Virus record (IMG/VR): IMGVR_UViG_3300036790_000386
Location: 1-64,000 of that record
Strand: one strand, 5' to 3'
Origin: a virus
DNA length: 64,000 bases
Below, one piece after another: positions 4,200 to 51,387 of this stretch. A program made the translations under genes and the position numbers. Numbering within the stretch: position 1 is the stretch's first letter; each line of letters begins with the position of its first letter. Under the pieces are notes generated by a model. The model saw only the letters and a list, made by a program, of their open reading frames with translations. It was not told the origin of the DNA and made no database searches.

Positions 4200-4395
4200 A
4201 AAAATCAGAGTTGTAGCAACCTACCAAGAGCAATCCACTTTCAATACAGACCTCACGTGGAACTATAGATTGCTTTCAGATGGTGTCTGTGAAGTTTGGT
4301 CACAGGCATGCAGAAGGTGGTTCCATTATAATTTCACGCGCGCGTTGCGCGCCTCGCCGCCTTCGGCGGCTCGCACAAACACAAAGAAAAAATAA
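4171..4395 (+). CDS. Hypothetical protein whose C-terminus is made by repeat element A
   Basis: Residues 1 to about 54 form a small beta-rich domain (RVVATYQ, YRLLSDGVCEVW, RRWFHYNF) of unknown function. The last ~20 residues (TRALRASPPSAARTNTKKK) are encoded entirely by the double-hairpin element A, and the stop codon lies in its tail. The ancestral protein probably ended near base 4335, so the element supplied a new basic C-terminus. ATG 4171 is chosen over 4135 because the upstream part only overlaps the preceding gene. Confidence 0.6.
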   Translation: MDQLSQLQNEKIRVVATYQEQSTFNTDLTWNYRLLSDGVCEVWSQACRRWFHYNFTRALRASPPSAARTNTKKK

Positions 4396-4416
4396 AACTT
4401 TATTACACCAGGCCCC
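4338..4416 (+). repeat. Double-hairpin element, copy A
   Basis: Hairpin 1 pairs 4338-4343 with 4347-4352 (GCGCGC, loop GTT). After the spacer CTC, hairpin 2 pairs 4356-4361 (GCCGCC) with 4365-4370 (GGCGGC), loop TTC. The conserved tail begins TCGCACAAACACAAAG and ends TTACACCAGGCCCC at 4416. It overlaps the 3' end of one gene and its tail ends 3 bases before the ATG of the next. The left flank TATAATTTCA is shared with copy E. Confidence 0.9.
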
Positions 4417-4419
4417 AAC

Positions 4420-4614
4420 ATGTCAAATAAGCGAAGGTTAGCTTTAAATAACGGCGATCGTGTCAAACACACAAAAACTAAAGCTGTCGGCACTTACACT
4501 GGAATGAAATCTTTTGTCATCGGTGAAAAGCGCAGCAATCGTTGGTGGATAGTGTGGGACGGTGAAGTTCAACTAAGGTCTCATACTCAAGATGAACTCG
4601 AACGAATCAAGTGA
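4420..4614 (+). CDS. Hypothetical basic protein, 64 aa
   Basis: A small basic protein with alternating strands (GDRVKHTKTKAVGTYTG, RWWIVWDGEV), resembling a KOW/SH3-like barrel of the kind found in small nucleic-acid-binding phage proteins. This is a fold guess, not a family match. It starts directly after element A and is the first gene of the cassette bracketed by elements A and B. Its stop overlaps the GTG of the next gene. Confidence 0.65.
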   Translation: MSNKRRLALNNGDRVKHTKTKAVGTYTGMKSFVIGEKRSNRWWIVWDGEVQLRSHTQDELERIK

Positions 4615-4787
4615 GACGCATTGCTGAATTTGAGTGTTTAAATTGTCACTATAAATGGCAACAACCAGCCGGCCCAACACAATGTGCAAGGTGCGGTCAT
4701 CTCTATATTAAATGGATAAATTACAATGAAGCAAAGCCAGAATTACCTAAAGGAAGCCTTTCAAGCTTTGTTAGCTGGCGACACTGA
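4611..4787 (+). CDS. Small zinc-ribbon protein, 58 aa (GTG start)
   Basis: A GTG overlapping the preceding TGA opens a 58-codon frame. It contains FECLNCHYKW, then GPTQCARCGHLYIKW: two Cys-x2-Cys knuckles about 15 residues apart with the conserved GPTQC-x2-CGH-x-Y-x-KW core of a zinc-ribbon family common in phages and sometimes misnamed HypA-like. That match is strong evidence the frame is real despite its size. Function unknown; probably zinc-dependent nucleic-acid binding. It overlaps the next gene by 62 bases. Confidence 0.75.
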   Translation: MRRIAEFECLNCHYKWQQPAGPTQCARCGHLYIKWINYNEAKPELPKGSLSSFVSWRH

Positions 4788-4938
4788 TAAGAGAGATGAT
4801 CTGTGCGCGAAATCAAAACTTGCACAAGAAGCGGAACTAAAGGCAGAGGCAATAGCTATAATTTTATCTATAGATTTTTATGTTTACGCAGATGGCACTG
4901 CAATCATAACAAAAGAAATGTATGCCGCGGCTCATTAG
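4726..4938 (+). CDS. Hypothetical helical protein, 70 aa
   Basis: Mostly helical and alanine-, lysine- and glutamate-rich (YLKEAFQALLAGD, KSKLAQEAELKAEAIAIIL), ending in a short strand region. Not recognised. The first 62 bases overlap the zinc-ribbon gene in another frame, and no strong ribosome site precedes the ATG, so the start or the gene itself could be wrong. Confidence 0.45.
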   Translation: MKQSQNYLKEAFQALLAGDTDKRDDLCAKSKLAQEAELKAEAIAIILSIDFYVYADGTAIITKEMYAAAH

Positions 4939-4970
4939 GCAGAGAATTAAAAAATTAAAGGAAACTAATA

Positions 4971-5402
4971 ATGTCTGATAAAGAAATACCTATCAAACAA
5001 TACCAGGCCGAAGCTGAAGCAACAAAATCCAACATGTTTATTGTCCCCGGCCATGATAATGTATTGTATAGCCTTCCGATTGATGTTCTCCACGCAGCTT
5101 TTGGCCTGTCCACAGAAGCAAATGAAGTTCTTGATATAGCCAAGAAAGCTATGTTTTATGGTAAAGTTATCGATTGGGTCCACATGGATGAAGAAGTTGG
5201 TGATATACTTTGGTATGTTGCTATCTACTGCAATTCTAGGGGTAAAACTTTCGAGGAACTTTGCAAGACAAATAACACCAAACTGAAGACTCGTTTTCCA
5301 GACAAGTTTACACAGTTTCACGCAATTAATCGTCAGTTAGATATTGAGCGAGAGGTTCTTGAAGAATTAAGTGCCACTGCTGAAGATGTTAAGGGCCAAT
5401 GA
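4971..5402 (+). CDS. MazG-like nucleoside triphosphate pyrophosphohydrolase
   Basis: The central helices carry the MazG metal-binding residues: HAAFGLSTEANEVLDI (E-x2-E) around residue 45 and DEEVGDILWYVA (E-x2-D) around residue 75. A conserved KLKTRFPDKF and a final INRQLDIEREVLEEL helix follow, typical of a phage/bacterial MazG-like family. It hydrolyses NTPs or dNTPs to monophosphates; in infection it may limit starvation signalling or shape the dNTP pool. It is the last gene in the cassette between elements A and B, and has an AAGGAAACT binding site. Confidence 0.8.
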   Translation: MSDKEIPIKQYQAEAEATKSNMFIVPGHDNVLYSLPIDVLHAAFGLSTEANEVLDIAKKAMFYGKVIDWVHMDEEVGDILWYVAIYCNSRGKTFEELCKTNNTKLKTRFPDKFTQFHAINRQLDIEREVLEELSATAEDVKGQ

Positions 5403-5415
5403 AGATAGATCGTTA

Positions 5416-5492
5416 GGGCCTGGTGTAATAAATCTTAATTCTTCTTTGTGTTTGTGCGAGCCGCCGAAGGCGGCGAGGCGCGCAACGCGCGC
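5416..5492 (-). repeat. Double-hairpin element, copy B (inverted)
   Basis: Reverse complement of A. On the plus strand the tail end AGGGCCTGGTGTAATAAA comes first, then hairpin 2 (5460-5465 with 5469-5474), spacer GAG, and hairpin 1 (5478-5483 with 5487-5492). It lies 13 bases after the MazG-like stop and 22 bases before the ATG of the RecA-like ATPase, so it forms that gene's leader. The outer flank (AGTTTCCC when read in element orientation) is shared with copy F. Confidence 0.9.
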
Positions 5493-5514
5493 GGGAAACT
5501 AAAAGGTAAATCAA

Positions 5515-6507
5515 ATGGCCGATGATATTAAACCAGAAGATACTATTCCATCATTAGGCTTTTTGGACGAGATTGAAACATCGCCAGTTAAAGCATTGTT
5601 GTTGGGTGATAGTGGACTTGGTAAAACTGGCGCAATGGCTTCGTTAGTTTGTGCTGGTTATAAGCTCTATATCTTGGACTTTGATATGGGCACGCCGATT
5701 TTAAGAAATGCTCTTGGCAGTTCGCGCTCTCCTTATGCTCAGTATTGCAAAGCTAAAAATATCAATGTTAATGATCATGTGTTTTCGTTACAATTGACTG
5801 AAAAGATGAAAGTGATGGGTGGTAAGCCAACACCTGTTTCTGCTCAAGTCTGGACAAAAGCTGGAAATGCTCTTGAAAATTTTAAAGTAGGTGATCGTAA
5901 ACTTGGCAATATTGGAGAATGGGGACAAGACGTAATTCTTGTTATCGATTCTTTTACCACATTGGGTTTTGCTGCTCTTTGGAATGTACAAGCGATGAAC
6001 AATCGTCTTGGTGCTGATTTCAGTGGCTATGATTGGCAACGTGATGTTGGACAAGCTCAGAATATGATGGAACGCTTGTTGCAGCTTCTTTATTCAAAAG
6101 CAGTTGGGTGCAATGTACTTGTTATTAGTCATATCACTTTTGTTGATGATTCTAAAGGCGTCGCTACTGCTCCTTCTCGTGACCCAGACGCCCCGAATAT
6201 TCAAGTTCGTGGCTATCCTTCTGCTATTGGTCGCTCCCTTAGCCAACGTGTTGGACGCTATTTCAATGATAGTTTCCAATTAGAGATGGTAGGTCATGGT
6301 CCAACAGCAAGAAGGTATATCTATACGCTTCCTCCATCAAATGTTTTGGTTAAATCTTCTGCTCCATTTACGTTGAAGCCGAAGTACACAATTGAAACTG
6401 GTTTAGCTGAAATTTTCGCAGGATTGAGAGGTCAGCCTGAACCAGAGGATTTAATTAGAACTTCTGAGCGTGAAGTGTGGTACAAAGCCACCCGACAGAA
6501 GGACTAA
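5515..6507 (+). CDS. RecA-like P-loop ATPase (Sak4/AAA type)
   Basis: Residues about 29-38 give the Walker A motif LLGDSGLGKTG, and VILVIDSFT near residue 141 gives Walker B; NVLVISHITF follows, typical of RecA-fold ATPases with a sensor histidine. These phage proteins work in recombination and replication, often with a single-strand binding protein; the OB-like gene at 6638 and the nuclease at 2905 fit that set. Length is within the usual range. The leader contains element B and an AAAAGG binding site. Confidence 0.8.
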   Translation: MADDIKPEDTIPSLGFLDEIETSPVKALLLGDSGLGKTGAMASLVCAGYKLYILDFDMGTPILRNALGSSRSPYAQYCKAKNINVNDHVFSLQLTEKMKVMGGKPTPVSAQVWTKAGNALENFKVGDRKLGNIGEWGQDVILVIDSFTTLGFAALWNVQAMNNRLGADFSGYDWQRDVGQAQNMMERLLQLLYSKAVGCNVLVISHITFVDDSKGVATAPSRDPDAPNIQVRGYPSAIGRSLSQRVGRYFNDSFQLEMVGHGPTARRYIYTLPPSNVLVKSSAPFTLKPKYTIETGLAEIFAGLRGQPEPEDLIRTSEREVWYKATRQKD

Positions 6508-6511
6508 CGAT

Positions 6512-6535
6512 ATCAAACTTCTATGAGAGTTTGAT
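6512..6535 (+). terminator. AT-rich hairpin after the ATPase gene
   Basis: ATCAAACT (6512-6519) pairs with AGTTTGAT (6528-6535) across an 8-base loop, followed by TTTTAAG. It starts 5 bases after the stop codon. The stem is AT-rich and the T-run short, so it may be a weak terminator or an mRNA 3' stabiliser. Confidence 0.35.
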
Positions 6536-6552
6536 TTTAAGCAACTTTAATC

Positions 6553-6570
6553 CAGGAGATAAAAATGTAA
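6553..6570 (+). other. Start-stop element: strong ribosome site with ATG-TAA
   Basis: AGGAG at 6554-6558 is ideally spaced from ATG 6565-6567, which is followed at once by TAA 6568-6570. No protein can be made. The next real ATG (6638) has only a weak site, so this could be a translational decoy or regulator, or the remains of a deleted gene start. Confidence 0.4.
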
Positions 6571-6637
6571 ACGAACCGGCTACGCAAATAATTTAATTTC
6601 TTTTTAAGCCTTTTTAATCAAGTGAGCAAATTAAATC

Positions 6638-7072
6638 ATGCCACCAGTAAATGTTTCTGATCTTCTTCGTCAACCAACCGACAAAGCTGAACGTCCTGCA
6701 CTTCTCCCAGATGGTCATTTTACAGGCACAATTCTGCGTCATGAATTTGACAAGAGCCGTCAGAAGAAGACTCCACTGGTTCGTTTCTTTTTGAATCCAA
6801 CTGGTGTTTCGACTGATCTGACTGAAGAGGATATCGAGGGAATCAACCTTAAGACTCTTGAACTTCGGCTTGAATTTTATTTGACACCGAAGTCCATGTA
6901 TCGTTTGGCTGATTTTTTGGATGGTGTTCTTGGCGAAGGGAGCGGTGAAGGCTATGATGAGCGGCTTCCTGAGACTAACGGTGCTAATGTCATTTTTGGC
7001 GTGCGTCAGCGTCTTAATGACGAAGGTAAGCCTATCGGCAACGAAGTTACAACCGTTGTTGGTGAAAATTAA
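6638..7072 (+). CDS. Putative single-stranded DNA-binding protein (OB-like)
   Basis: The region PDGHFTGTILRHEFDKSRQK-then-PLVRFFLNP looks like the first strands of an OB-fold binding protein of the DUF669 kind, followed by LELRLEFYLTPKSMYRLADFLDG. Placement directly after the RecA-like ATPase, with a terminator behind it, fits an SSB or recombination mediator. There is no acidic SSB tail. This is a position-supported guess; it could also be an unrelated replication accessory protein. Confidence 0.45.
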   Translation: MPPVNVSDLLRQPTDKAERPALLPDGHFTGTILRHEFDKSRQKKTPLVRFFLNPTGVSTDLTEEDIEGINLKTLELRLEFYLTPKSMYRLADFLDGVLGEGSGEGYDERLPETNGANVIFGVRQRLNDEGKPIGNEVTTVVGEN

Positions 7073-7084
7073 CTGACTAAACTG

Positions 7085-7115
7085 GAGGGGGAGATTAAAC
7101 TCTCTCCCTCTTTTT
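7085..7115 (+). terminator. Rho-independent terminator
   Basis: GAGGGGGAGA (7085-7094) pairs with TCTCTCCCTC (7101-7110) with one G-T wobble and a 6-base loop, followed directly by TTTTT. It lies 13 bases after the putative SSB stop and ends the first early transcription block. The 160 bases behind it, up to the next gene, are AT-rich and show short palindromes but no gene. Confidence 0.85.
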
Positions 7116-7278
7116 AGCTTTAGATAGTTTACTAGAATATTTTGAATAGAAGTTTCATTAATTCAAAGAAAAATTACAATTGGATTTTATGGAAATGGAA
7201 AGAAAGCTATTTTAGCTTACAATGAGTTAGCTTAGTGGCTTTTTGGGAATAAAGTACCATATAATAAGGTAGCTTTCA

Positions 7279-8775
7279 ATGAAAGTGATTAGTGAAATTT
7301 TTCTATTGGAGCCAACTTTAGTTATAGTTGAAGATCGTCAACGTTCAGTTTTGAATAAAGAGTCTTTGGCTGAATTAAAAGATAGTATTGCACTTTATGG
7401 TGTTTTGTCTCCTATCGTAGTTCGACAATCTGTTAATGGTCCGGTTTTGATTTTTGGTTTGCATAGATTAACAGCTTGTCTTGAGCTTGGTATTTCTGTT
7501 CCTGCTTTTTATTTTGAATCTCTTTCTATTATTGATGCTAAGGTTTTAGAATTAACTGAAAATATTAAGCGCTCTGATTTAAGTTGGATAGATAAAGTTA
7601 AAGCGATTGGCGAAATTCATGCTCTGCATAAAGCTGAAGATAAGAATTGGAACAATACAGCTACTGCAAAAGAGCTAAGCCTGAGTAACACATATATTGG
7701 ACAGGTATTGACTGTATACCCGTTTTTAGGGTCGAAAAAGCTAGAAGCGGCCACTAGCATCACCCATGCATTTAACATCCTTTCTCGTTTAGCTGACAGG
7801 CAGGCTGCGGCAATTGTAGGCGAGATGATAGGGGTATCAAATGATTTCTTTAAAGAAGAGACTGAACGGCCAATATCAATAGAAACTGACAGTGCAGGAA
7901 GTGAGAAATCTACAGAAGTATTATCACTCGCTACTGGAATTTCAAAAAATGATTTTATTGGAGTTCAAGTTTCGAGTAGTAATCGGTCTGTTAAAGTTAA
8001 TGTGTCTAAGGCTGTTTCAACTAAAAATGAAGAACGCAAGTCTGTGCCTGTTCCGCATACTAAGGGTGCTATTTTAAATGAAAGTTTTTTAGAATGGGCG
8101 ACAACATATAGTGGCAGTAAATTTACGCTTGTTCATTGTGACTTTCCTTATGGAGTTTTCCATGGGGCTAATGCTGCTGGCGGGTTTGGTTCTACTTTCG
8201 ATGGTACTGCTAACAGTCAAGAAGCTTTGTATGAGAACACTCAAAAGATTTATTACGATTTACTGGACTCTTTTGTTGTTAATTTTGATAAGTTTGCTTC
8301 TTACAGTTGTCATGTTATCTTTTGGTTTTCGATGAATTTTTATGAAGAAACTAAAGAGAAATTGGAATCAATTGGATTGAGAGTTCAACCTCATCCGTTT
8401 ATTTGGCACAAGAGTGATTCAAAAGGCGTTTCACCTTGGCCTCATGGGCCTAAAAAAATTTATGATACAGCTTTTATTTGCTCGCGCGGTGACAGACAAA
8501 TGATTAAGCAAGGTACTAATGCTTATTCTGGTCCCACGCCTACTAATAAGATTCACCCATCTGAAAAATCAGAAGCTATGTTGAAGTATTTTTTATCAAG
8601 TTACATTGATGAAACAACAACGGTATTTGATCCAACGTGTGGATCAGGAGTTGCACTTCGTGCGGCTGAAGATTTAGGTGCTAAAGAAATGTTAGGGTTA
8701 GAGATTAATTCTGAATATGCTGTTGCTGCAAATCATGCGATGTTGAAAGCAAGGGCATTAAGAAAATTGAAATGA
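7279..8775 (+). CDS. ParB-like domain fused to DNA methyltransferase
   Basis: Residues 1-110 form a ParB/sulfiredoxin-type domain (LIFGLHRLTACLELG, then ELTENIKRSDLSWIDKVKAI), followed by a helical HTH-like segment. A linker leads to an amino-methyltransferase: motif IV is DFPYG (~residue 289, a DPPY variant), motif X IHPSEKSEAMLKYF, and motif I FDPTCGSGVALRAAE near the C-terminus. The order IV-X-I is the beta class, which makes N6-adenine or N4-cytosine. ParB-methyltransferase fusions are known in phages; this one may protect phage DNA from restriction. First gene after the terminator. Confidence 0.85.
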   Translation: MKVISEIFLLEPTLVIVEDRQRSVLNKESLAELKDSIALYGVLSPIVVRQSVNGPVLIFGLHRLTACLELGISVPAFYFESLSIIDAKVLELTENIKRSDLSWIDKVKAIGEIHALHKAEDKNWNNTATAKELSLSNTYIGQVLTVYPFLGSKKLEAATSITHAFNILSRLADRQAAAIVGEMIGVSNDFFKEETERPISIETDSAGSEKSTEVLSLATGISKNDFIGVQVSSSNRSVKVNVSKAVSTKNEERKSVPVPHTKGAILNESFLEWATTYSGSKFTLVHCDFPYGVFHGANAAGGFGSTFDGTANSQEALYENTQKIYYDLLDSFVVNFDKFASYSCHVIFWFSMNFYEETKEKLESIGLRVQPHPFIWHKSDSKGVSPWPHGPKKIYDTAFICSRGDRQMIKQGTNAYSGPTPTNKIHPSEKSEAMLKYFLSSYIDETTTVFDPTCGSGVALRAAEDLGAKEMLGLEINSEYAVAANHAMLKARALRKLK

Positions 8776-9041
8776 AAATTGAAATGAAAATCGAAGATGT
8801 AGTGCCGTTAGGGTATGTTATTGAATTAGAAGGTAAACGACTTGTTTTTGTTGGAAAACTTCCAGGTAATATTCTTAATAGCTATTATGTTGGTTTTAGG
8901 AACTTTGAAGGCAGTGATACTAAACTTAAGCTTTCAAAAGAAGCTATGGAAGCGCTTATTCAACTTTACTCTAAGCTTGAAGCAGCACCTGGTACTGATC
9001 CTTTTCCTGAAAGAGAGAGTTGGGCTGTTGTGGAAGAATGA
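8772..9041 (+). CDS. Hypothetical protein, 89 aa
   Basis: Starts at an ATGA overlap with the methyltransferase stop, so it is probably co-translated. The N-terminal half is beta-rich (GYVIELEGKRLVFVGKLPG) and the C-terminal half helical. Not recognised; no motif. An internal ATG at 8784 is an alternative start. Confidence 0.65.
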   Translation: MKIEMKIEDVVPLGYVIELEGKRLVFVGKLPGNILNSYYVGFRNFEGSDTKLKLSKEAMEALIQLYSKLEAAPGTDPFPERESWAVVEE

Positions 9042-9080
9042 TTTTAAATATAAATTTGTATCAAGAAGGGAATAAAAGCT

Positions 9081-9281
9081 ATGCCAACATTGAAAGATGT
9101 ATTTATAATTGAGATTTTATCTCCGTTTGATCATAAGGTAGATGAAAAATTTCGAGTGATGCCACCTGAAGGTAAAATAAAAACATCTGAGGCTATTGCA
9201 AGATTAATTCATGAAACTTTTTTTACAGATTTAGTTACTGTAAATGTTACGCATGAGAGAAGAGTAGTTGAAGGTGAATAG
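9081..9281 (+). CDS. Hypothetical protein, 66 aa
   Basis: A small acidic alpha/beta protein (DVFIIEILSPF, TSEAIARLIHETFF, VTVNVTHERR). Not recognised. An AAGGGA sequence precedes the ATG. Conserved direction and tight packing support it; no function can be given. Confidence 0.55.
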   Translation: MPTLKDVFIIEILSPFDHKVDEKFRVMPPEGKIKTSEAIARLIHETFFTDLVTVNVTHERRVVEGE

Positions 9282-9350
9282 TGGCTCAGGCTCCAACTAT
9301 CTAGGCAAGTTGTTAATGCAAGTTCGAGCTGAACTTAAAAAGTTAGTTAA

Positions 9351-9470
9351 ATGAAAAGCTTTAGAGAAGAAACGTTAGAACGTCAATTTGCGGCTTCTAT
9401 TTTCTTCTGGTTTAACTTTATTTTTAAGTTGGCAATTTTTATTGCTGTAATAAAGTATATTGTTAAATGA
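9351..9470 (+). CDS. Small membrane protein, 39 aa
   Basis: A 39-codon frame starts at ATG 9351 and its stop overlaps the next ATG (ATGA at 9467). After a charged N-terminus (KSFREETLERQ) there is one long hydrophobic stretch (FAASIFFWFNFIFKLAIFIA) ending in K-Y-I-V-K, so a single membrane span is likely. The start-stop coupling and charge layout support a real gene. Function unknown. Confidence 0.5.
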   Translation: MKSFREETLERQFAASIFFWFNFIFKLAIFIAVIKYIVK

Positions 9471-10639
9471 AAATTCTAATTGTAGGTGAAGCTTACGGCG
9501 ATAAAGAGTCGATGTTTAATCATCCCTTTGTTGGCCCAGCGGGGCGCGAGCTTGCTAATATGCTAGCTGATGCTGGGCTTGCACCTGCTCACAATATGCG
9601 TTGGCCTAATGAATTGGATATGATTGCCCACTGGAAGATGCTTAAGCGAGCTTATAGTATTGAGTTAGCTCTTGTGTTTCCAGTGCAGCCTGAAGATAAT
9701 AATGTAGAATTGTTTTTTGGAGCAAAGAAAGAAGATGTTTGTCTTGATATGGGACCGCTTAAGCCGGGTGCGTATTTAAGGAAAGCTTATAGACCATATT
9801 ATGATGAATTGCACGAGCTAATTAAAACTGAAAAACCGAATCTTGTTATTACAGTTGGAGTTACGCCAACGTGGGCTCTAACAGGACAGCAAAAAATTGC
9901 AGGTATCCGAGGTACTGTAATTTGGAATCCGGTTTTAAAGACAAAGATTTTGCCTACATGGCATCCAGCTGCTGTTTTAAGACAATGGTCATTGCGTGCT
10001 ATTGCTATTGCAGATTTGATGAAGGCCAAGAAAGAATCTGAATATCCTGAAGTTAAACGTACTAAGCGTTATATTTTAGTTGATCCTTCTTTTGCTGAAA
10101 TGAAAGAATGGCTAGACCAACCTGCTAAAATTTTTTCAGTTGATATCGAAACTGGATATGCACTTTTTAGTAAGACTGAAATCGAACGTATGAAAAAGCA
10201 ACAACCTCATCTTGTGAGTTTGTTAGCAGGTCAGATATCGATGATAGGTTTCGCTAGAAGTTCTACAGAAGCAATGGTTATTCCTTTTATGGCTCGTAGA
10301 GAGTTAAAGGAAACTGAAATTGTCGGTGAATTGTTGGTTTCTAAGAGAACACTGAATTATTGGGACAACCCAGATGATGAAATTGAAGCTTGGCGACTTG
10401 CGCTGTATGGCTTAAAGAAACCAGTTCCAAAGCTTTTTCAAAATGGTGTGTTTGATATATCTAGATTGCTTTGTGCTGCGATGAGACTAACTCAGTGTTA
10501 TGAAGATACAATGCTATATCATCATGCACTTTTTCCTGAACTTCAAAAAGGATTAGGTTTCTTAGGCTCTCTTTATACTGATGAACCAGCATGGAAAGGT
10601 ATGTTGCATCACGGTGAATCAATAAAACGCGATGAATAA
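9467..10639 (+). CDS. Uracil-DNA glycosylase fused to polymerase-type 3'-5' exonuclease domain
   Basis: Residues 1-190 resemble family 4/5 uracil-DNA glycosylases: GEAYGDKE at the N-terminus, NHPFVGPAGREL next, and the C-terminal active-site motif PTWHPAAVLR. Residues ~215-390 form a DnaQ-type exonuclease domain: FSVDIETG (Exo I), QNGVFDISRL (Exo II) and YEDTMLYHHAL. The polymerase gene at 10850 lacks this domain, so proofreading is encoded on a separate polypeptide joined to a base-excision domain. The start overlaps the preceding small gene. Confidence 0.8.
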   Translation: MKILIVGEAYGDKESMFNHPFVGPAGRELANMLADAGLAPAHNMRWPNELDMIAHWKMLKRAYSIELALVFPVQPEDNNVELFFGAKKEDVCLDMGPLKPGAYLRKAYRPYYDELHELIKTEKPNLVITVGVTPTWALTGQQKIAGIRGTVIWNPVLKTKILPTWHPAAVLRQWSLRAIAIADLMKAKKESEYPEVKRTKRYILVDPSFAEMKEWLDQPAKIFSVDIETGYALFSKTEIERMKKQQPHLVSLLAGQISMIGFARSSTEAMVIPFMARRELKETEIVGELLVSKRTLNYWDNPDDEIEAWRLALYGLKKPVPKLFQNGVFDISRLLCAAMRLTQCYEDTMLYHHALFPELQKGLGFLGSLYTDEPAWKGMLHHGESIKRDE

Positions 10640-10659
10640 CTTAAATAAGGAATGAACAA

Positions 10660-10842
10660 ATGGATGACTCTGATAGAAAATTATTAGAAGGTAGAATCAG
10701 AACATTAGAAACTTTGGTTTCTGCTTTGCTCCATACTGTTATTGATACTTCTTGTTCAACTGAAGACGAAGTTGAACGATATATGCAAGCATCATATAAA
10801 TTAAGTACTCAAGTAAGAAGCAATAATCAGCATAACGGTTGA
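10660..10842 (+). CDS. Hypothetical helical protein between exonuclease and polymerase
   Basis: A 60-residue helical, charged protein (DRKLLEGRIRTLETLVSALL) that may form a short coiled coil. It sits exactly between the two halves of the split polymerase and might help join them, but that is only suggested by position. An AAGGAATG site precedes the ATG. Confidence 0.55.
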   Translation: MDDSDRKLLEGRIRTLETLVSALLHTVIDTSCSTEDEVERYMQASYKLSTQVRSNNQHNG

Positions 10843-10849
10843 TTATTTT

Positions 10850-12784
10850 GTGTGCATTGAAAGTCTAATTATGCCAATTATTGAAACCAGCGTATTAACA
10901 GGACAAGAAGATACAAGCAATACGCAGGCTTATAATGGCCTTGATTGCATGATGACGCTTGAGATTTTCAATGCACTGTCTCAACTACCTGACCCAAATT
11001 CTGGTGTGATTTATAATTTTTCGCGTGCGCTTCAGGCTCCTGTTATTGAAATGTCTTTGCGTGGTTTTAATGTTAATATGGTAGCCCGTGAAAAGGCTAT
11101 TGCTCAAACTAAAAAGAAAATGGCTGAATTTAATAATATTATTCAGCAATTTTCGCAAGCTATGTGGGACAGGGATATTAACCCTAACTCAAGTATGCAG
11201 CTAAAAGATTTATTTTATAACAATTTCAAAATTAAGCCTGTTATGAAGTATGTCGCCGGCGAAGAGAAAATGCCGATGGACAGAAAAGCAATGGAAAAGC
11301 TAGAGTCTCAATTGTGGGCTCGCCCGATGATCGCAATAGTTTTAGCTTGGCGTGATTTAGCAAGACAACTCCAACTGTTAGAATCAGAGATTGATGATGA
11401 TTGGCGTTTTCGTTCTTCTTTCAATATTGCAGGCACCACTACAGGTCGTTGGTCCAGTTCAAAATCTTCAACTGGCTCTGGGGGAAATGCACAGAATGTT
11501 GCTCCTGGGCTTAGGTTTATATTTACTGCTGATGATGGATTTGATCTTTATGGCTATGACTTAGAACAAGCTGAGTCGCGTGAAGTTGGTTTACTTTGTG
11601 GAATTCTGTTTGGTGATTGGACTTATCTTAATGCTTGTGAACGCGGTGATTTACACACTACTGTCTCTCGCTTAATTTGGCCAAACCTTGGTTGGACAGG
11701 CAATGATAAAGAAGACCGTAAAATTGCGGATCAACCTTATTATCGTGCAATGTCTTATCGAGATTTATCAAAGCGTGGTGGACATGGATGCGTAACAGCA
11801 GACCATGAAGTTTTGACGCCTGATGGTTGGGTTGGTATAGATACCAAACCTGATGTTATCATGCAGTGGAATGGCGCAACAGCTAATTATATTAAAGTAG
11901 ATAAGTGGACTGATAAAACTTATGAAGGTATTTTTCATGAATGGGAAAATGACACTTTATCTATTAACATGACTGACGATCACAGAGTTTATTTTTGGTT
12001 ACCTGGTTCAACGAGAATTGTGGTAGCAACACCAAGCGCGGTGCCGAGTGGTGCTTTAATCCCAACACAGATTATTTCTTATAATTCCACTTTTAGTGAA
12101 ATTAACGATCAAACAACAAAACTTACATATTTTGCAACAAAGCGGGTTTATTGCCCAACAGTTTCAAGTGGCGCTTTTTATATAAGAAGAAACAATAAAG
12201 TTTCAATAACTGGCAATTCTAATTATTTGTTGAAGCCTAAAAATGCTGCCGAACATTTAAAAATTCCTGTTTCTATGGCTGAAGAATTTCAATCAAATTA
12301 TTATAGTGCATTTTCAGCAATCCCTAAATTTCATCAATGGGTTGCAGAACAACTTCAAACAAAAATGTATCTTACAAATGTTTTTGGACGTAGGCGCGAT
12401 TTTTTTGATAGGCCAGATTCAGATGAGACAATTCGCAAAGCTGTAGCATATCTTCCACAATCTGCAACAGGTGACAGACTTAATTTAGGTCTTTATCGTA
12501 TATGGAAACATATGCCTCATGTGCAGTTAGTCGCGCAAGTTCATGATGCTGTCTATTTTCAAGCTCCTAATTCTTATGATAAAAAACTTATTGATACACA
12601 AACTAAAGCATGTCTTGAAGTACCGCTCTATATTGGAGATAGGAAGTATTTAGTCCCATCTGAAGGAAAAGTAGGGTTTAATTGGGGTAACTATTATGAT
12701 GAAAAAGATGCTGAAAGAGATTTAGCTGAAGATCGCCTCCCAAGACCCTTAAATACTAGTGGCCTTAAAAAACTAAAATTTTAG
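10850..12784 (+). CDS. polA: DNA polymerase A (polymerase domain only) with mini-intein
   Basis: A family A polymerase lacking its exonuclease domain, which is encoded at 9467. Motif A is GYDLEQAESREVG (~residue 236), motif B is RDLSKRGGHG joined after splicing to SNYLLKP, and motif C is AQVHDAVYF (~561). The reading frame is interrupted in motif B by a 143-residue intein (residues 314-456); the spliced product would be 501 residues. Start is GTG 10850 or ATG 10871; neither has a strong binding site. It acts in phage DNA replication with the ATPase at 12816. Confidence 0.88.
   Translation: MCIESLIMPIIETSVLTGQEDTSNTQAYNGLDCMMTLEIFNALSQLPDPNSGVIYNFSRALQAPVIEMSLRGFNVNMVAREKAIAQTKKKMAEFNNIIQQFSQAMWDRDINPNSSMQLKDLFYNNFKIKPVMKYVAGEEKMPMDRKAMEKLESQLWARPMIAIVLAWRDLARQLQLLESEIDDDWRFRSSFNIAGTTTGRWSSSKSSTGSGGNAQNVAPGLRFIFTADDGFDLYGYDLEQAESREVGLLCGILFGDWTYLNACERGDLHTTVSRLIWPNLGWTGNDKEDRKIADQPYYRAMSYRDLSKRGGHGCVTADHEVLTPDGWVGIDTKPDVIMQWNGATANYIKVDKWTDKTYEGIFHEWENDTLSINMTDDHRVYFWLPGSTRIVVATPSAVPSGALIPTQIISYNSTFSEINDQTTKLTYFATKRVYCPTVSSGAFYIRRNNKVSITGNSNYLLKPKNAAEHLKIPVSMAEEFQSNYYSAFSAIPKFHQWVAEQLQTKMYLTNVFGRRRDFFDRPDSDETIRKAVAYLPQSATGDRLNLGLYRIWKHMPHVQLVAQVHDAVYFQAPNSYDKKLIDTQTKACLEVPLYIGDRKYLVPSEGKVGFNWGNYYDEKDAERDLAEDRLPRPLNTSGLKKLKF
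11789..12217 (+). mobile_element. Mini-intein in DNA polymerase motif B
   Basis: The intein runs from Cys314 (CVTADHEVLTPDGW, block A) through block B (NMTDDHRVYF, with the T-x2-H) to block F (RVYCPTVSSG and VSITGN). The +1 residue is serine. The C-terminal pair is Gly-Asn rather than His-Asn, a known variant. At 143 residues there is no room for a homing endonuclease. Insertion lies in the finger O-helix between GGHG and SNYL, so the polymerase should be inactive until splicing. Confidence 0.88.
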
Positions 12785-12815
12785 GAGCGGTTTAAATGAA
12801 ACATCAGAGTACAAG

Positions 12816-17606: not shown

Positions 17607-17846
17607 ATGTTCGACCTTCGCGCAGTCTCGCTTGAAATTGAACGCCTCGCTTGTGGTGCCGGATCAGCAAAAGTTGATACCATAAACCTTCTTGAAACAA
17701 TTCTTCAAGCAGATTTCAAAAATTTAGAGCTTGCCGCTAAGCTGCGCACTTCTTGGTTTCTTTTGGCGGAAGTTCAACGTCTCATGATTGAAGCTGATAA
17801 CATAGTTATAGCACAAGTGCAGGAGGAAACTATCAATGAAGCTTGA
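17607..17846 (+). CDS. Hypothetical helical protein, 79 aa
   Basis: Almost wholly helical (VSLEIERLACG, TINLLETILQADFKNLELAAKLR, LLAEVQRLMIEADN). Not recognised. GGAG lies 11 bases before the ATG. It is the first gene after the structured intergenic region and overlaps the winged-helix gene by 11 bases, so the two may act together. Confidence 0.65.
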   Translation: MFDLRAVSLEIERLACGAGSAKVDTINLLETILQADFKNLELAAKLRTSWFLLAEVQRLMIEADNIVIAQVQEETINEA

Positions 17847-22977: not shown

Positions 22978-23892
22978 GTGAAAAAAAATATCGAACAAGC
23001 CACCTTGATGATCCAAGCTTTTGAAAGCGTTGGATGCAACTATTTTACCCTAGTAGCAGAAAAAAATAATGAAACAGTATTTATTCGCCGTGCTGTTGAT
23101 GCAGAATTTATCAAGCTTAATCTCAGAAACGACCTTGAACATGCTGCTAGGGTATCTTGTAATCTGCACCTTCGACCCTATTCTCGATTATATTATTTGG
23201 TGCAGCTTGACGATATTCGCATTTTTCCTTTTTGTGTTTGTGCGAGCCCGCTGGAGGCGGGCGAGGCGACCGCAGGTCGCGTGAATTCACCATTTATCAT
23301 TACAGAAACAAGTTCAAAAAGTTATCAATGTTGGTTAGCTTTAAATAAAAAGTTTACAGTAGACGAAACTAAGATAATTAAAAAGATTTATCAGGCGGAT
23401 TTGGGCGCTACGGGAAGCTGCCGACTGGCAGGTTCAACCAATTTTAAGGAAAAATATTCGCCAAATTTTCCAACCGTTAGAGTTGTTTTTAGTTCTTTAT
23501 ATACTCTAGCGGATTATGAAGAATTATCTACTCAGATAATTCAATTTAATGCGCGGCAAGCCGCGCCTCGGCGGCTTTCAGCCGCCTCGCACAAACACAA
23601 AAAAGAATTTAACAATATTACACCAGGCCCCAAACTAACTAGAACTCTTGCATGGCCTTTTTATTCAAAAGCTATTCAACAGAACGATGGTAGAAGAGAT
23701 GGTTGGGGTCCAGATCGAAGTAGGGCTGATTTTGCTTGGGCAATTATGGCACTGAAATTTGGGCACTCAGTTGAAGAAGTTGCAGCAAAGCTTCAACAGA
23801 TTAGTGATAAGGCAAGAGAGAAATCGGAATACGAAGCGGAGTTGTATGCCTTTAATACGGCACTGCGTGCTTCTGAGGTTTATAATAGGTGA
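22978..23892 (+). CDS. RepB-type primase carrying two in-frame repeat elements
   Basis: Typical RepB/AEP primase motifs are present: YYLVQLDDI, IITETSSKSYQCWLAL, and ADLGATGSCRLAGSTNFKEKY. The C-terminal part (GPDRSRADFAWAIMALKFG) is helical. Two double-hairpin elements lie in frame: C gives CVCASPLEAGEATAGRV between the QLDD and TSS strands, and D gives a ~30-residue insert (ARQAAPRRLSAASHKHKKEF and on) after the primase core. Both inserts lie at likely surface loops and leave the frame intact. The start is GTG 22978 with a weak site. It probably primes replication for the polymerase at 10850. Confidence 0.75.
   Translation: MKKNIEQATLMIQAFESVGCNYFTLVAEKNNETVFIRRAVDAEFIKLNLRNDLEHAARVSCNLHLRPYSRLYYLVQLDDIRIFPFCVCASPLEAGEATAGRVNSPFIITETSSKSYQCWLALNKKFTVDETKIIKKIYQADLGATGSCRLAGSTNFKEKYSPNFPTVRVVFSSLYTLADYEELSTQIIQFNARQAAPRRLSAASHKHKKEFNNITPGPKLTRTLAWPFYSKAIQQNDGRRDGWGPDRSRADFAWAIMALKFGHSVEEVAAKLQQISDKAREKSEYEAELYAFNTALRASEVYNR
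23228..23280 (-). repeat. Double-hairpin element, copy C (inverted, within primase gene)
   Basis: Read on the minus strand, hairpin 1 is GCGACC/GGTCGC (loop TGC) and hairpin 2 is GCCCGC/GCGGGC (loop CTCCA), joined by CTC and followed by TCGCACAAACACAAAAA. Arms differ from copies A, B, E and F yet pair perfectly. The tail stops after this and lacks the CCAGGCCCC end. The insert is translated without a stop. Confidence 0.88.
23551..23631 (+). repeat. Double-hairpin element, copy D (within primase gene)
   Basis: Hairpin 1 is GCGCGGC (23551-23557) with GCCGCGC (23560-23566); hairpin 2 is GGCGGC (23570-23575) with GCCGCC (23581-23586), loop TTTCA; the spacer is CTC. The tail runs TCGCACAAACACAAA to CCAGGCCCC at 23631. 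It is read in a different frame from copy A. Opposite in orientation to C, 270 bases away. Confidence 0.9.
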
Positions 23893-23903: not shown

Positions 23904-24449
23904 TTATGGCAATAATAGGTTTGACTCGATTCTGTCAATAACAGAATGCGCCCAAGCAATATCGTCTTCGTCAATTTCGCCAAAATTACCTCCAAATGCT
24001 GATGCAGTCATCGGAAGTTCTTCACCGATTTCTGCTGCTTGCCAGATTACGTCATGCGATAGGTTTGATATACTTACAGCGGTGTGATTGGAGCAAATTG
24101 CATTAATTACCGTATCAACCAAGCTAATTTGCTCAGCTGAAAATATAGAAATATCAGGCTTCTTCAACGAGAAGAATTGCGTTTGGTTGTACACGTAGGT
24201 TGGGATCTGTCGTTCAACTAAAGCCCCTGACTTCACAAGGCGTGCGCGGGAAGCCATAATATCTCTGGGGGTCGGTCCAAATTGGCGCTTGATATACGTC
24301 GCTCCAGTTATAGAACTCCCGTATTCAGCGAAGGCAAACATGTCAGAATACCACAAAACCTTATTAAGTTTTGTAACTCCAAGTTTGTTAGGATTATCGC
24401 ACCGCGCACATATGTAGTGCGTGAGTGTGTCTAATTTCGCATGTTCCAC
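23904..24449 (-). CDS. Panacea (DUF4065) antitoxin-like protein
   Basis: Residues 27-36 (KLNKVLWYSD), 45-48 (SITG) and 58-61 (GPTP) form the Panacea/DUF4065 signature, found in antitoxins that neutralise many unrelated toxins. The C-terminal half is helical with no toxin domain. It stands alone at the left end of the late strand, with its own promoter, and its base composition and codon choice look less AT-rich than neighbours, suggesting transfer. No toxin gene is adjacent on this strand, so it may counter a host toxin-antitoxin defence. Only 11 bases separate its end from the primase gene. Confidence 0.8.
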   Translation of the reverse strand: MEHAKLDTLTHYICARCDNPNKLGVTKLNKVLWYSDMFAFAEYGSSITGATYIKRQFGPTPRDIMASRARLVKSGALVERQIPTYVYNQTQFFSLKKPDISIFSAEQISLVDTVINAICSNHTAVSISNLSHDVIWQAAEIGEELPMTASAFGGNFGEIDEDDIAWAHSVIDRIESNLLLP

Positions 24450-36481: not shown

Positions 36482-36512
36482 ATTAAATGTTTCCTTCAAT
36501 TTATAATTTCAC

Positions 36513-36590
36513 GCGCGCGTTGCGCGCCTCGCCGCCTTCGGCGGCTCGCACAAACACAAAGAAGGATTAAGATTTATTACACCAGGCTCC
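36513..36590 (+). repeat. Double-hairpin element, copy E
   Basis: Hairpin 1 pairs 36513-36518 with 36522-36527, spacer CTC, hairpin 2 pairs 36531-36536 with 36540-36545, and the tail ends CCAGGCTCC at 36590. Read in the direction of the genes it lies just before the cysteine-peptidase start. CCAGGCTCC pairs with GGGGCCTGG at 36605-36613, possibly a remnant of a second inverted element. Confidence 0.9.
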
Positions 36591-36622
36591 AGAAGATTTC
36601 TTTTGGGGCCTGGAGTTGTAGT

Positions 36623-39630: not shown

Positions 39631-39639
39631 CAAAACTGA

Positions 39640-43947: not shown

Positions 43948-43966
43948 GGTTTATTGGCCCTTTGGG

Positions 43967-44590: not shown

Positions 44591-44602
44591 TAGAATTTCC
44601 TA

Positions 44603-45136: not shown

Positions 45137-45146
45137 AAAAATTTCC

Positions 45147-47404: not shown

Positions 47405-47413
47405 TATCTCTTC

Positions 47414-47797
47414 TCAGGTAGTTGCTGGCGCAATAGTCTGAATAGATGGAAATGTAGTTGTGCCAAATACAGTATTTATATTTGAGCCTGAAACAGAATA
47501 TGTTCGTGTAGATGCTGTATAATTGACATTCCAATTTTCAATATTAATTACACCAGGAACCGCCAATACAGCAGTCTTTAAAATTAATGCACCCATAGTT
47601 AAATTGCCATAACCAGCAATTTGAGTATTATACGGGATGCCCGCTGAAAGATTTAAAAACCACTCTGTTTGCCATAATTTTAAACTGGTGCCAACGATTT
47701 GAGATACAGCAGCTGCACTATCAATAAGATAATTTGCTGAACCTTGCCCAAATGTCATATCACCAGTTGAGCTTAATGTTCTGACCCTAAGAACCAT
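47414..47797 (-). CDS. Baseplate wedge protein, gp25/W-like
   Basis: GDMTFGQGSANYLIDS, QIVGTSLKLWQTEWFLN and GIPYNTQIAGYG match the small lysozyme-fold wedge protein of contractile baseplates (gp25 or P2 W type) without an active site. It lies next to baseplate J as in other phages. ATG at 47797. Confidence 0.7.
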   Translation of the reverse strand: MVLRVRTLSSTGDMTFGQGSANYLIDSAAAVSQIVGTSLKLWQTEWFLNLSAGIPYNTQIAGYGNLTMGALILKTAVLAVPGVINIENWNVNYTASTRTYSVSGSNINTVFGTTTFPSIQTIAPATT

Positions 47798-47830
47798 TGA
47801 ATACCACGCTGCTGCTTAAATAGATGTAAT

Positions 47831-49450
47831 TTATAATTCTGCACTTGCTGTTACTGAGCATTCCATTAAACCTGCTCCTGAAGAGGTTATTAATGCTTGC
47901 AATATACATCCAGTATCAGATTCAAAATTTACAGCACCTGTAGATGCATTAGTGTAAGCTGGAGATATTATACTAACACTAGGAGTTCCTCTCATCATCG
48001 CAGGCCACGTGAACCATTGAAAAATACCACCACCAGGTCCATTATAACCTGGTACGATAACAGTTCCAAATTCACAATAATACCTTTGGCACGAAATAAA
48101 TTCAGTTGCAATGCTACGCCGTTCAAATGATGTAGCAACTGTACCTTTTTCAAGTTGAATATCTGTAGCGCCAATTTCGTTATTAATAGTTTCAGGCCAA
48201 TTTGTACTTGTTGAACTACACAAATAAGAACCACTTTGCCATGAACCAAAAATGGATGTGGCATAAGTTCCAATAGTGTACGCACCTATAACAAGAGTCA
48301 AGCCTGTTGAAGATGAATTAGGAACATTTGCTCCTGATGGTATAGATGTTACAGGAATTACTACTTTTTGAAACGCCCCAGATCCTGTATAGGAGAAGTT
48401 TTGAACAAACGAGTTTGTGCCAGTCCCATCAAGCAAAGCAACGCTATATGTACCATTTACCGTTGCGTAAAAAATAAACGAAATAACAACTGGCTGACCA
48501 ACAAGATCATAGCAGTTGGCTCCTTCAATTCTCTGCTCTATGCCTCCAACATAATTTGTTCCAGTGAAACCAGAACAAGCAGAAATAGCTTGCAAATATA
48601 TAAAATTGTGCGTTGTTACGCTGCCATAACTGCCACCACTTGCTTGACTTTGATAAATGGTCCCAGATACTGCATTATTAATTCCAATAAACCTATCAGG
48701 ACCACCATAAGCTGTTGTACCGTTGGGAAGTGAAACCGTACTTCGCTGAGCTACTCGACAATCACCGTTAATAATTCTATTTTTTAAAGTATTGAACTGG
48801 CTAACAGTTAAGCCCTGACCACTCGCAGTACCTGGTGCAATTTGAACAGTACCACCCCCTGAAATAAGATTCCAAGTAGAAGAAGTTGAACTATATTGCA
48901 ACAATGCTGTATTGCTTGCAACAATTTCACCTCCTTGCAAAGTAGAGCCACCCATAGTTATGTTCTTAGCATCGCCGCCTGCATTAAATGTTGATGCTCC
49001 TATATTTGTATTAGCTGGATTAAACGAAACAAACATTCCATCAGTATAAGTTGTAATTGCAGGAGTTAAAGCAACAACATAAGCGTTAGCTGAGCCTGAA
49101 TCTGTTGCTTGATAATTATATGAATTTTGTTGAATAACATTATTGAAATTAGTTAAAATTCCAGCAGTAACATCAGAATAAATTGTATCTCCTTCAACCC
49201 ATTCTTGTGCAGTTGAACCTTCTTGTCCACGAAGAACAGTAAGATTTAAACCTGATATTGCTGTAACCCAAACAATTTCAAATATGCCAGCAGTTGCTGG
49301 ATGAATAATTGTTAGAGATAAATAAGATCCTGAAGGTATTGCCGGAAATCCAGAAACACTTGCTACAGAAACTGTAGTAACAGCATCATTAATGCCGGAA
49401 GTTAAATCTGTATCAATATTAGTTCCAAAAACAAAAACTTCTGTTGTCAT
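47831..49450 (-). CDS. Tail fibre protein with receptor-binding module, 539 aa
   Basis: The N-terminus (FGTNIDTDLTSGINDAVTTV) and SGLNLTVLRGQEGSTAQEW are common baseplate-attached fibre domains. The middle has LKNRIINGDCRVAQRS and GGPDRFIG, a module frequent in tail fibres followed by a jelly-roll carbohydrate-binding fold. The C-terminus contains FERRSIATEFISCQRYYCEF, typical of this class. It is a probable receptor-binding protein. Confidence 0.75.
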   Translation of the reverse strand: MTTEVFVFGTNIDTDLTSGINDAVTTVSVASVSGFPAIPSGSYLSLTIIHPATAGIFEIVWVTAISGLNLTVLRGQEGSTAQEWVEGDTIYSDVTAGILTNFNNVIQQNSYNYQATDSGSANAYVVALTPAITTYTDGMFVSFNPANTNIGASTFNAGGDAKNITMGGSTLQGGEIVASNTALLQYSSTSSTWNLISGGGTVQIAPGTASGQGLTVSQFNTLKNRIINGDCRVAQRSTVSLPNGTTAYGGPDRFIGINNAVSGTIYQSQASGGSYGSVTTHNFIYLQAISACSGFTGTNYVGGIEQRIEGANCYDLVGQPVVISFIFYATVNGTYSVALLDGTGTNSFVQNFSYTGSGAFQKVVIPVTSIPSGANVPNSSSTGLTLVIGAYTIGTYATSIFGSWQSGSYLCSSTSTNWPETINNEIGATDIQLEKGTVATSFERRSIATEFISCQRYYCEFGTVIVPGYNGPGGGIFQWFTWPAMMRGTPSVSIISPAYTNASTGAVNFESDTGCILQALITSSGAGLMECSVTASAEL

Positions 49451-49452
49451 TA

Positions 49453-50202
49453 TTATGATCCAGGGACAGGAGGTGCAGTTGTACCAGTACCAGGTTTAAC
49501 ACCATTGTGATCATGATTCTGTAGAGTAACAGAACCACCTGTACCGCTACCTGCTGTAACATCGCCACTTGCTGTAACGTTACCATTACTATCAACACTA
49601 AAAAATCCACCAGGAAATGCTAAACTAAAACCAGCAGGAGTTAAACTCATAGTAGCTGCGCTATCTGGAAGTGTTGCTACTAAACCTGATTTGCTAAAAG
49701 TTACTGAAGCTGTGCCATCATCAGAACGAAGCTGAACTGTAGTATCACTAACATTATTAAGCAATCTAGTTGAATTGCGACCGCCTAGCTCAAAAAAGCC
49801 ATCTGAAAGATCATGCTTGCGAAGAGAACCAGAATTATTTGAGGCTAGTGTTGGTTGAACTCCACCAAGAAGCCACCAGTTATCAATACACCTAGATGAA
49901 AATGAAATTGTTCCTTCGTCACCTACAGCGACTGGAAACGTCATTGTATAACCACCACCGGATGGAAACTTAATCGGAACCATTGGCATAAGTGGCATTG
50001 GAAATGGAACCCAACTTACATTGCCGCTAGCGTCAACTTGTCTCAATAATGGTGTTATTGTAGATTGAACTGTAACATGCTGGCCATCATCTTCAATTGC
50101 TGTAACTATACAAGGCAACTTTGTCCACATTCTACTTTGGAGATTGTCCAAAGCAGCATTCATTGCATTTTGTGGGTCTTCCCAGCGTTCATAATTTAAC
50201 AT
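49453..50202 (-). CDS. Central spike protein, gp138-like
   Basis: The N-terminal half (KLPCIVTAIEDDGQHVTVQS, VPIKFPSGGGYTMTFPVAVG then DEGTISFS, DNWWLLGG) and RKHDLSDGFFELGG match the Gp138 OB-fold spike base. The C-terminus HDHNGVKPGTG contains an H-x-H metal site of spike tips. It forms the membrane-piercing needle of the baseplate. Start overlaps the hub stop. Confidence 0.82.
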   Translation of the reverse strand: MLNYERWEDPQNAMNAALDNLQSRMWTKLPCIVTAIEDDGQHVTVQSTITPLLRQVDASGNVSWVPFPMPLMPMVPIKFPSGGGYTMTFPVAVGDEGTISFSSRCIDNWWLLGGVQPTLASNNSGSLRKHDLSDGFFELGGRNSTRLLNNVSDTTVQLRSDDGTASVTFSKSGLVATLPDSAATMSLTPAGFSLAFPGGFFSVDSNGNVTASGDVTAGSGTGGSVTLQNHDHNGVKPGTGTTAPPVPGS

Positions 50203-51299
50203 TAGGAACCACCACCATTTATTCCAGAATATGGTTGAACTTGCTGATAATTTTTTGGATTAGTTGAACCACCAACAGGAACAGCAGAAATAACAACTAA
50301 ATCAGAATACCAATCATTTCCGCGAGAGTCGCCTCGATGCTCTACAACAAGAATAATATAAGTTCCATCAGCAGAAACATCCATAATGTAGTCAGAAATT
50401 CCAGGACCAGGAAAAATTGGCTCTTGAATTCCTTGAATGCTATTGCCTTGCGCAGCTAATGTTTGATTAACTATTGTATTGTTAATTATAACTGGCCGTC
50501 GAATTCCATAAGAAGGATTTAAAAGTGTTCTAACTTCCAATCCATCAGATGTTGTTACTGGAAACCCAACCATACCAGTTAAAGAATTAATAATAAAAGC
50601 TGTTGTATCTGAAATCGATACATTAGATGGAACTAAAACAAACTGTCCATTCTGTATAGACCACTCCATTGGCTGGCCACCAACGTATACAGACTTAGCT
50701 GTATTATCTAAAATTGGAGCAGACAGCCCATATTGAACAGTTGGTCGAGGTTGTATAGGAAGCACAGGGGCAGCAAGAACTTGACTACTAGGAACAGTTG
50801 TATCCCAAGGAGTTAAAGACTGAGCTAATGCTTTAATTCTTCCTTGTGGTGTATTTGCAGATCCTATAAGTGTGCTTGATATAGTTGCATTATTGTAGGG
50901 TCTATCACCATCAGCTGCATCAATTTCTAAAAAGCTATCAACAGCCGTTTCGCCTCCAAATTTAATTTGACGAATTGTTCCATCGAAAATAACACCAAAA
51001 CGGCCATTTAGATAACCAGCAGAAAGTGTAACTCTACGATACTGATTTTTAATCATAGTTACTAAATTATTACTAACATTATAAATTTTAATACTACAAT
51101 AATTTGGAATACTTGCAGTTGTTTGATGTACTTCAAAGACAATATGAAGCTGTTCTTCACCTGGAGCATCAGACCCAGCAGAAATTTGTGTTGCTACATT
51201 AGCTCCAGCCGCTGAATCATAAACAACTACTGACCATTTTCGTAACCATTGGTCTGATACAGTTGAAGTTGATGTTGGAGTTGAATATGCTTGTGACAT
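50202..51299 (-). CDS. Baseplate hub protein
   Basis: LHIVFEVHQTTASIPNYCSI then KIYNVSNN, SAGYLNGRFGVIFDGTIRQ and EIDAADGDRPYN follow the phage hub family (gp27/gp44-like) that sits beneath the tail tube and carries the spike. It precedes the spike gene. The leader contains element F, whose hairpin 1 lies 10 bases before the ATG; a GGGAAA at the edge of the hairpin may be the binding site. Confidence 0.75.
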   Translation of the reverse strand: MSQAYSTPTSTSTVSDQWLRKWSVVVYDSAAGANVATQISAGSDAPGEEQLHIVFEVHQTTASIPNYCSIKIYNVSNNLVTMIKNQYRRVTLSAGYLNGRFGVIFDGTIRQIKFGGETAVDSFLEIDAADGDRPYNNATISSTLIGSANTPQGRIKALAQSLTPWDTTVPSSQVLAAPVLPIQPRPTVQYGLSAPILDNTAKSVYVGGQPMEWSIQNGQFVLVPSNVSISDTTAFIINSLTGMVGFPVTTSDGLEVRTLLNPSYGIRRPVIINNTIVNQTLAAQGNSIQGIQEPIFPGPGISDYIMDVSADGTYIILVVEHRGDSRGNDWYSDLVVISAVPVGGSTNPKNYQQVQPYSGINGGGS

Positions 51300-51309
51300 T
51301 CAGTTTCCC

Positions 51310-51387
51310 GCGCGCGTTGCGCGCCTCGCCGCCTTCGGCGGCTCGCACAAACACAAAGAAGAATTAAGATTTATTACACCAGGCCCC
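51310..51387 (+). repeat. Double-hairpin element, copy F
   Basis: Hairpin 1 pairs 51310-51315 with 51319-51324, spacer CTC, hairpin 2 pairs 51328-51333 with 51337-51342, and the tail ends CCAGGCCCC at 51387. It fills the gap between the plug gene and the hub gene; read with the genes it is the hub leader. The outer flank AGTTTCCC is shared with copy B. Confidence 0.9.

Follow-up and report, generated by a model that had tools for sequence, protein, structure and literature searches.

Bacteria and mitochondria are known to contain small palindromic repeats whose sequence varies while the shape is retained, and the spread of those without a transposase is still puzzling. Repetitive extragenic palindromic (REP) sequences and REPINs are short palindromes with a four-base tag at the hairpin foot (GTAG in REP) and are associated with RAYT transposases; they are often paired, lie mainly between genes and are recognized as single-stranded DNA. 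REP sequences are sometimes found inside replication genes (PMC3733652). Rickettsia palindromic elements are single palindromes with a CGTC tag that can lie in frame within a protein gene. Mitochondrial hairpin-forming elements have two hairpins, occur between or inside genes and are thought to be mobile, with no function assigned (PMC2800124). In the IncQ plasmid RSF1010, the single-strand initiation (ssi) sites ssiA and ssiB are recognized by the primase RepB'; the 40 nt site has a hairpin at nt 7-27, is contacted through its 5' tail and first GC pair, and carries a GTG start motif at nt 31-33 (PMC4434180). Here we describe a dispersed palindromic DNA element of about 95 bp, with two tandem hairpins, in the phage record IMGVR_UViG_3300036790_000386 (101,927 bases). 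Positions 1-64,000 of this record are referred to as the window. The genome encodes portal, sheath, terminase and tail genes, and its best protein matches are scattered, mostly across phages of Pseudomonadota.

A double-hairpin element in ten copies

The genome contains ten copies (Table 1). Six lie within the window, of which B and C are on the minus strand; the other four are in the remainder of the record. In element orientation, the order of parts is TTTATAATTTCA, hairpin 1, CTC, hairpin 2, CTCGCACAAACACAAA, an AT-rich partial palindrome and CACCAGGCCCC. The sequence-only reading had described six copies, A to F, and all are present: each has hairpin 1 with a GC stem of 6-7 bp, the CTC spacer, hairpin 2 with a 6 bp stem, and an exact TCGCACAAACACAAA behind it. 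The window contains six occurrences of this 15-mer; 3.5 are expected by chance even with up to 3 mismatches allowed. The sequence CTCGCACAAACACAAA forms an invariant single-stranded tail 3' of hairpin 2. It is followed by the third palindrome (AATAAAnnTTTATT and variants) and then by the terminus, CCAGGCCCC. Copies A, B, D, E and F carry the end motif TATTACACCAGGCCCC, either exactly or with one base changed, and C lacks it, as had been reported; with up to 3 mismatches the motif was found 7 times in place of an expected 0.18. The left end TTTATAATTTCA, or a near variant, is found in five copies and is displaced in J. On the complementary strand, CGAG stands at the 5' foot of the hairpins in 10/10 copies (a CGAG/CTCG tag).

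Copies G, H and I carry the exact 15-mer and were found in the rest of the record. In J the 15-mer is altered to TCGCACAACCACAAA, and this tenth copy was detected solely by a covariance model built from the other nine, in the scan of the remaining phage sequence that the sequence-only reading had proposed. Copies A, B, E, F and H share 81-93% identity across their whole length, and B and F are complementary at 99% across 88 nt, although A, B, E and F have flanking sequences that show no relation on inspection by eye. Open reading frames (ORFs) of the main strand cover about 95% of the window by a rough estimate, yet eight of the ten copies (A, B, E, F, G, H, I and J) are intergenic and non-coding; only C and D are intragenic. 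The related copies thus stand at ten non-homologous sites and in either orientation, from which we infer that the element has spread within the genome.

Hairpin 1 of G (GCCGCC-TTC-GGCGGC) is identical to hairpin 2 of the main type, so the hairpins look like interchangeable modules as judged from these sequences.

Table 1. Coordinates of the element copies, the primase gene that contains two of them, and the diverged elements of the related phage
Feature	Position	Strand	Details
Copy A	4324-4421	+	hairpin 1 4338-4352, hairpin 2 4356-4370, invariant tail 4371-4385
Copy A, distal parts	4391-4416	+	AT-rich palindrome 4391-4404, end motif 4401-4416
Copy B	5410-5506	-	end motif 5415-5430, tail 5445-5459, hairpin 2 5460-5474, hairpin 1 5478-5492
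Copy C	about 23231-23287	-	tail 23231-23245, hairpin 2 23246-23262, hairpin 1 23266-23280; no end motif
Copy D	23537-23636	+	hairpin 1 23551-23566, hairpin 2 23570-23586, tail 23587-23601, end motif 23616-23631
Copy E	36499-36595	+	hairpin 1 36513-36527, hairpin 2 36531-36545, tail 36546-36560, end motif 36575-36590
Copy F	51296-51392	+	hairpin 1 51310-51324, hairpin 2 51328-51342, tail 51343-51357, end motif 51372-51387
Copy G	69318-69418	+	outside window
Copy H	76500-76597	+	outside window
Copy I	87148-87249	+	outside window
Copy J	84201-84300	-	outside window; covariance model match
Primase ORF	22978-23892	+	304 aa, RepB'-like (RSF1010-type); reading frame open through C and D
K1 (relative)	L143:12540-12622		one main hairpin after CGAG tag
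K2 (relative)	L144:about 10834-10934		nested hairpin
K3 (relative)	L144:about 17748-17828		one main hairpin after CGAG tag

Two copies have additional element-like sequence beside them. Next to E, on the minus strand, the end motif recurs in inverted and imperfect form (36605-36620). Together with the end motif of E it forms a terminator-like hairpin of 14 pairs (36582-36613), and it is perhaps what is left of another element in inverse orientation. Copy J apparently has two consecutive left ends, TATAATTTCAC and TTAATTTCCC (L052:1202-1330, record 84201-84329), and this region is perhaps one element adjoining the remnant of another.

Conservation of hairpin shape

For covariation analysis we aligned nine copies (all except J) and compared them with 500 shuffles and with slid controls. 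Of the cells, 92.6% are paired, versus 75.9% in the shuffles, and changes on both sides occur in 7 of the 12 pairs, a count matched by 1/500 shuffles. The covariation score is 0.426 versus 0.127 for the shuffles (0/500 as high), and the slid controls gave 0.016-0.086. The hairpins are identical in A, B, E, F and H, so the number of independent hairpin sets is six (the main type, C, D, G, I and J). The covariation of the hairpins is real: their shape is conserved while the stem sequence varies, as the sequence-only reading had argued from C and D. Hairpin 2 keeps a GC basal pair throughout the nine aligned copies.

Folded as single-stranded DNA, copies A, G and I form two hairpins on both strands (z scores of -2.0 to -2.6 in element orientation). 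As RNA of the element strand their z scores are -1.6, -3.1 and -2.4, respectively; the best fold is the double hairpin in A and G, and in I it is hairpin 2 with a rearranged hairpin 1. For RNA of the complementary strand, which is the coding-sense strand for most copies, the double hairpin is not the best fold of any of the three (z scores of 0.05, -0.51 and 0.09). Many loops of the complementary strand are of GNA or GNRA type (GAA, GCA, GTAA), and their complement is often UNCG. Loops of both kinds are known to be stable, so that loop type does not decide between the strands. The suggestion of a mobile or functional RNA or DNA module is supported as far as dispersal is concerned; an RNA module transcribed with the genes is not supported by the gene-sense folds of these three copies.

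Diverged elements in a related phage

A portal search identified one close relative, IMGVR_UViG_3300032770_000051 (40 kb), whose portal protein has 76-79% amino-acid identity. Its record spans the late region only and is colinear with our phage from 38.6 kb of the window to about 78 kb of the record, in blocks mostly of 65-77% nucleotide identity. The sequence-only reading had regarded a lack of further copies in relatives as evidence against its proposal; this relative carries three diverged elements, K1, K2 and K3.

They were scored with a two-part tail profile, built from the copies of our phage, and compared with 20 Markov shuffles. In the relative they rank first to third: K2 scores 30.4, K1 27.5 and K3 20.2. 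The top shuffle scores 24.4, and K2 and K1 are therefore beyond chance, whereas K3 is not on tail score alone; K3 is linked mainly through its near identity to K2 across the tail CACAGACACAGGGAAAAATTCCCCC. The covariance model gave no convincing match in the relative (K2 at E 2.9).

K1 lies at the site orthologous to that of F, with flanks that align on both sides and hairpins that differ; both precede a conserved baseplate gene. K2 lies near the place of G, beside the corresponding small ORF. Orthology of G and K2 was suspected from this common ORF and is not claimed, as the elements failed to align. K3 has a site of its own, ahead of an MT-A70 methylase gene, and K2 and K3 adjoin accessory genes (HNH endonuclease, MT-A70 methylase). 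At the site in the relative that corresponds to H no element is visible. Because K1 and F occupy orthologous sites, K2 and K3 lie elsewhere and H is without a visible counterpart, dispersal and old occupancy are both present. Thus, spread has taken place, and one site or more must be old.

Two copies within a RepB'-like primase gene

Copies C and D lie in frame within one ORF, inverted relative to each other, with tails outward and about 300 bp apart. The encoded protein weakly matches RepB' of RSF1010 by phmmer (PDB 3h20, E 0.008; 3h25, E 0.32), and it matches Pfam RepB_primase_C short of the curated cut-off (1.1e-3 with the whole protein and 1.1e-4 with its C-terminal piece). The catalytic triad, DD and D, is retained in an alignment with four plasmid RepB proteins. 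Copy C comes directly behind the catalytic DD, where all four homologues have a shorter and different stretch, and D falls in a variable stretch ahead of the C-terminal helical domain. By this alignment, an insertion into the primase gene is probable. No relatives of the primase were confirmed in IMG/VR or the phage collection. An AlphaFold model made with no alignment (predicted local distance difference test, pLDDT, of 34) was uninformative and was not used. The gene is adjoined by one for a protein with a SocA-like antitoxin (Panacea) domain (23904-24449, minus strand).

Comparison with described systems

With REP sequences and REPINs the element shares short palindromes, a four-base tag at the hairpin foot, frequent pairing, a mainly intergenic dispersal in both orientations and, as a proposal only, recognition as single-stranded DNA. 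It differs from them in its tag (CGAG), in the directly tandem arrangement of its hairpins, in its long invariant tail, and in that no RAYT was found in the phage. The in-frame position of C and D within a protein gene recalls Rickettsia palindromic elements, which differ in tag (CGTC versus CGAG/CTCG) and in having a single palindrome where this element has two hairpins and a tail; here, moreover, the element is borne by a phage in ten copies. The likeness to REP and Rickettsia palindromic elements noted in the sequence-only reading thus holds for architecture and habit and extends to in-frame placement, but membership in either family is not supported: the tags differ, and no RAYT was found in the phage, as true REPs would lead one to expect. 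That reading had not remarked on the placement of C and D in the primase gene, the element at the F site of the relative, the AT-rich third palindrome or the four copies beyond the window. Mitochondrial double-hairpin elements share two adjacent hairpins with variable stems, and insertion between or inside genes. This likeness is structural, and the mitochondrial setting, together with the invariant tail and end motif found here, separates the two. The ssi sites resemble the element in combining a hairpin with conserved single-stranded flanks, in forming an inverted pair and possibly in occurring with a RepB-type primase in the same genome, to which the match here is weak; they have one hairpin with GTG in the 3' tail, rather than two hairpins with the tail CTCGCACAAACACAAA (PMC4434180).

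Pattern, blastn, Rfam and model searches for the element, which reach close forms only, extended well beyond this phage. The exact 15-mer occurs in 42 stretches of IMG/VR, 0 with hairpins ahead of it, and a gapped tail pattern matched 84 IMG/VR stretches, all chance on inspection. A structural pattern gave 15 matches in 85,000 prokaryote genomes (GTDB), also chance on inspection; in 14 of the genomes with such matches the covariance model found nothing. Neither 50,697 phage records nor a blastn search of annotated phages yielded a convincing copy, and no Rfam family matches the element. Run on 78 sources, mostly distant portal relatives, the covariance model returned one chance-like match. A phage case of such an element was not found in the limited literature searched.

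Interpretation and alternatives

We consider the chances about even that this is a phage-borne palindromic element, similar to REP, Rickettsia palindromic and mitochondrial double-hairpin elements, that disperses within the genome and acts through a folded single strand. In the manner of those elements, a short sequence would spread within the genome, mobilized by a trans-acting enzyme that works on its folded single strand while the phage replicates. Copies landing in gaps or in permissive protein loops would survive, and selection or recognition would preserve the shape of the hairpins.

Several observations weigh against this proposal. The Y1/RAYT transposase family (PF01797) has no match in the phage record (controls were positive in 10/14 genomes; the host may carry such an enzyme), and a reverse transcriptase was not found in the record. 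The terminal inverted repeats and target duplications that would mark a MITE were not seen when the sequences flanking A, B, E and F were inspected by eye, and comparison with the one close relative gave no exact empty site. Orientation in the late region is non-random, with 4/4 copies in our phage and 3/3 in the relative placed the same way. Finally, an element has been kept at the site of F despite about 30% nucleotide divergence, which suggests a function beyond selfish spread.

An alternative role is priming. If the RepB'-like primase recognized the hairpin and conserved flank in single-stranded DNA, the ten copies would be priming or origin sites serving both strands; we regard this as possible but unlikely. 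The arrangement of C and D inside the primase gene is like that of an apparent ssi pair in the IncQ plasmid pDN1, whose ssi-like sites were placed here from an inverted repeat and not from annotation. The constant basal GC pair of hairpin 2 and the invariant tail also fit, and the inverted pairs C/D and J/I fall close to the two extremes of cumulative GC skew, its peak at about 24-27 kb and its low point at about 84-87 kb. However, the skew also tracks gene direction: early genes run on the plus strand and those between about 24 kb and about 78 kb on the minus strand, and since the direction switches in the same regions the two causes are inseparable. The primase match is weak, and its structure prediction uninformative. 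GTG does not occupy the ssi position on the element strand and, on the complement, stands behind hairpin 1 in only about half of the copies. RSF1010 has two sites, one per strand, compared with ten copies here. By analogy, the phage may carry a multi-copy IncQ-type ssi system, with about ten sites in 102 kb, two of them in the primase gene, that spreads within the genome when used, a combination that we find rather doubtful. If priming by this primase were true, a plasmid-type, hairpin-directed priming system would operate in a phage.

Another role, which we think improbable, is that of a leader RNA. The element would then form the 5' untranslated leader of the gene behind it and act on translation, RNA stability or antitermination. 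The put RNA of phage HK022, a double stem-loop, offers a comparison. Copies B, E, F, G, H and J, and likewise K1-K3, each occupy the gap between two genes and keep one orientation with respect to the second. For the six copies of our phage, the sense strand of that gene is the element complement. In most cases its start codon lies at a distance of between a few bases and a few tens. However, A, D and I are antisense (A and I fall outside the upstream arrangement), and C and D are intragenic. A leader RNA is also weakened by the coding-sense RNA of the three copies folded, which does not adopt the double hairpin as its best fold. In the relative, K1 folds no better than shuffles, and K2 is an exception, folding well on both strands (gene-sense z of -3.0).

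The copies might instead be recombination linkers for the exchange of modules between related phages, and K2 and K3 do directly precede genes missing from the same place in our phage. F and K1, however, precede a conserved baseplate gene, and with one relative compared we consider this very improbable. Hardly credible is a role as terminator or promoter repeats between operons: the mostly intergenic placement, the GC hairpins and a TATAAT that several copies have at their left end would suit it, but orientation is mixed, and A, B and F lack a terminator-like T-run on either strand (E has one only through the extra inverted end motif). The regions of F and E have no promoter-like site; at A, a single match on the minus strand extends into the end motif.

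Ten copies of different ages, a relative with diverged elements and the copies in the primase gene would together form an experimentally small system in which to watch spread and function.

Other features of the phage genome

The terminase large subunit (72449-75517, minus strand; L051:8950-12018) is 1022 aa long; residues 35-378, about 344 in all, are additional and sit at the ATP-binding motif. The extra stretch carries a LAGLIDADG domain, is missing from the terminase of the relative (678 aa) and is very likely an intein. The DNA polymerase is split into two plus-strand ORFs, 9467-10639 and 10850-12784, that correspond to consecutive parts of PHROG 17 (548-790 and from 808); the small ORF between them matches no known family. 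A further plus-strand gene (7279-8775) encodes a ParB N-terminal domain fused to an N6/N4 DNA methylase.

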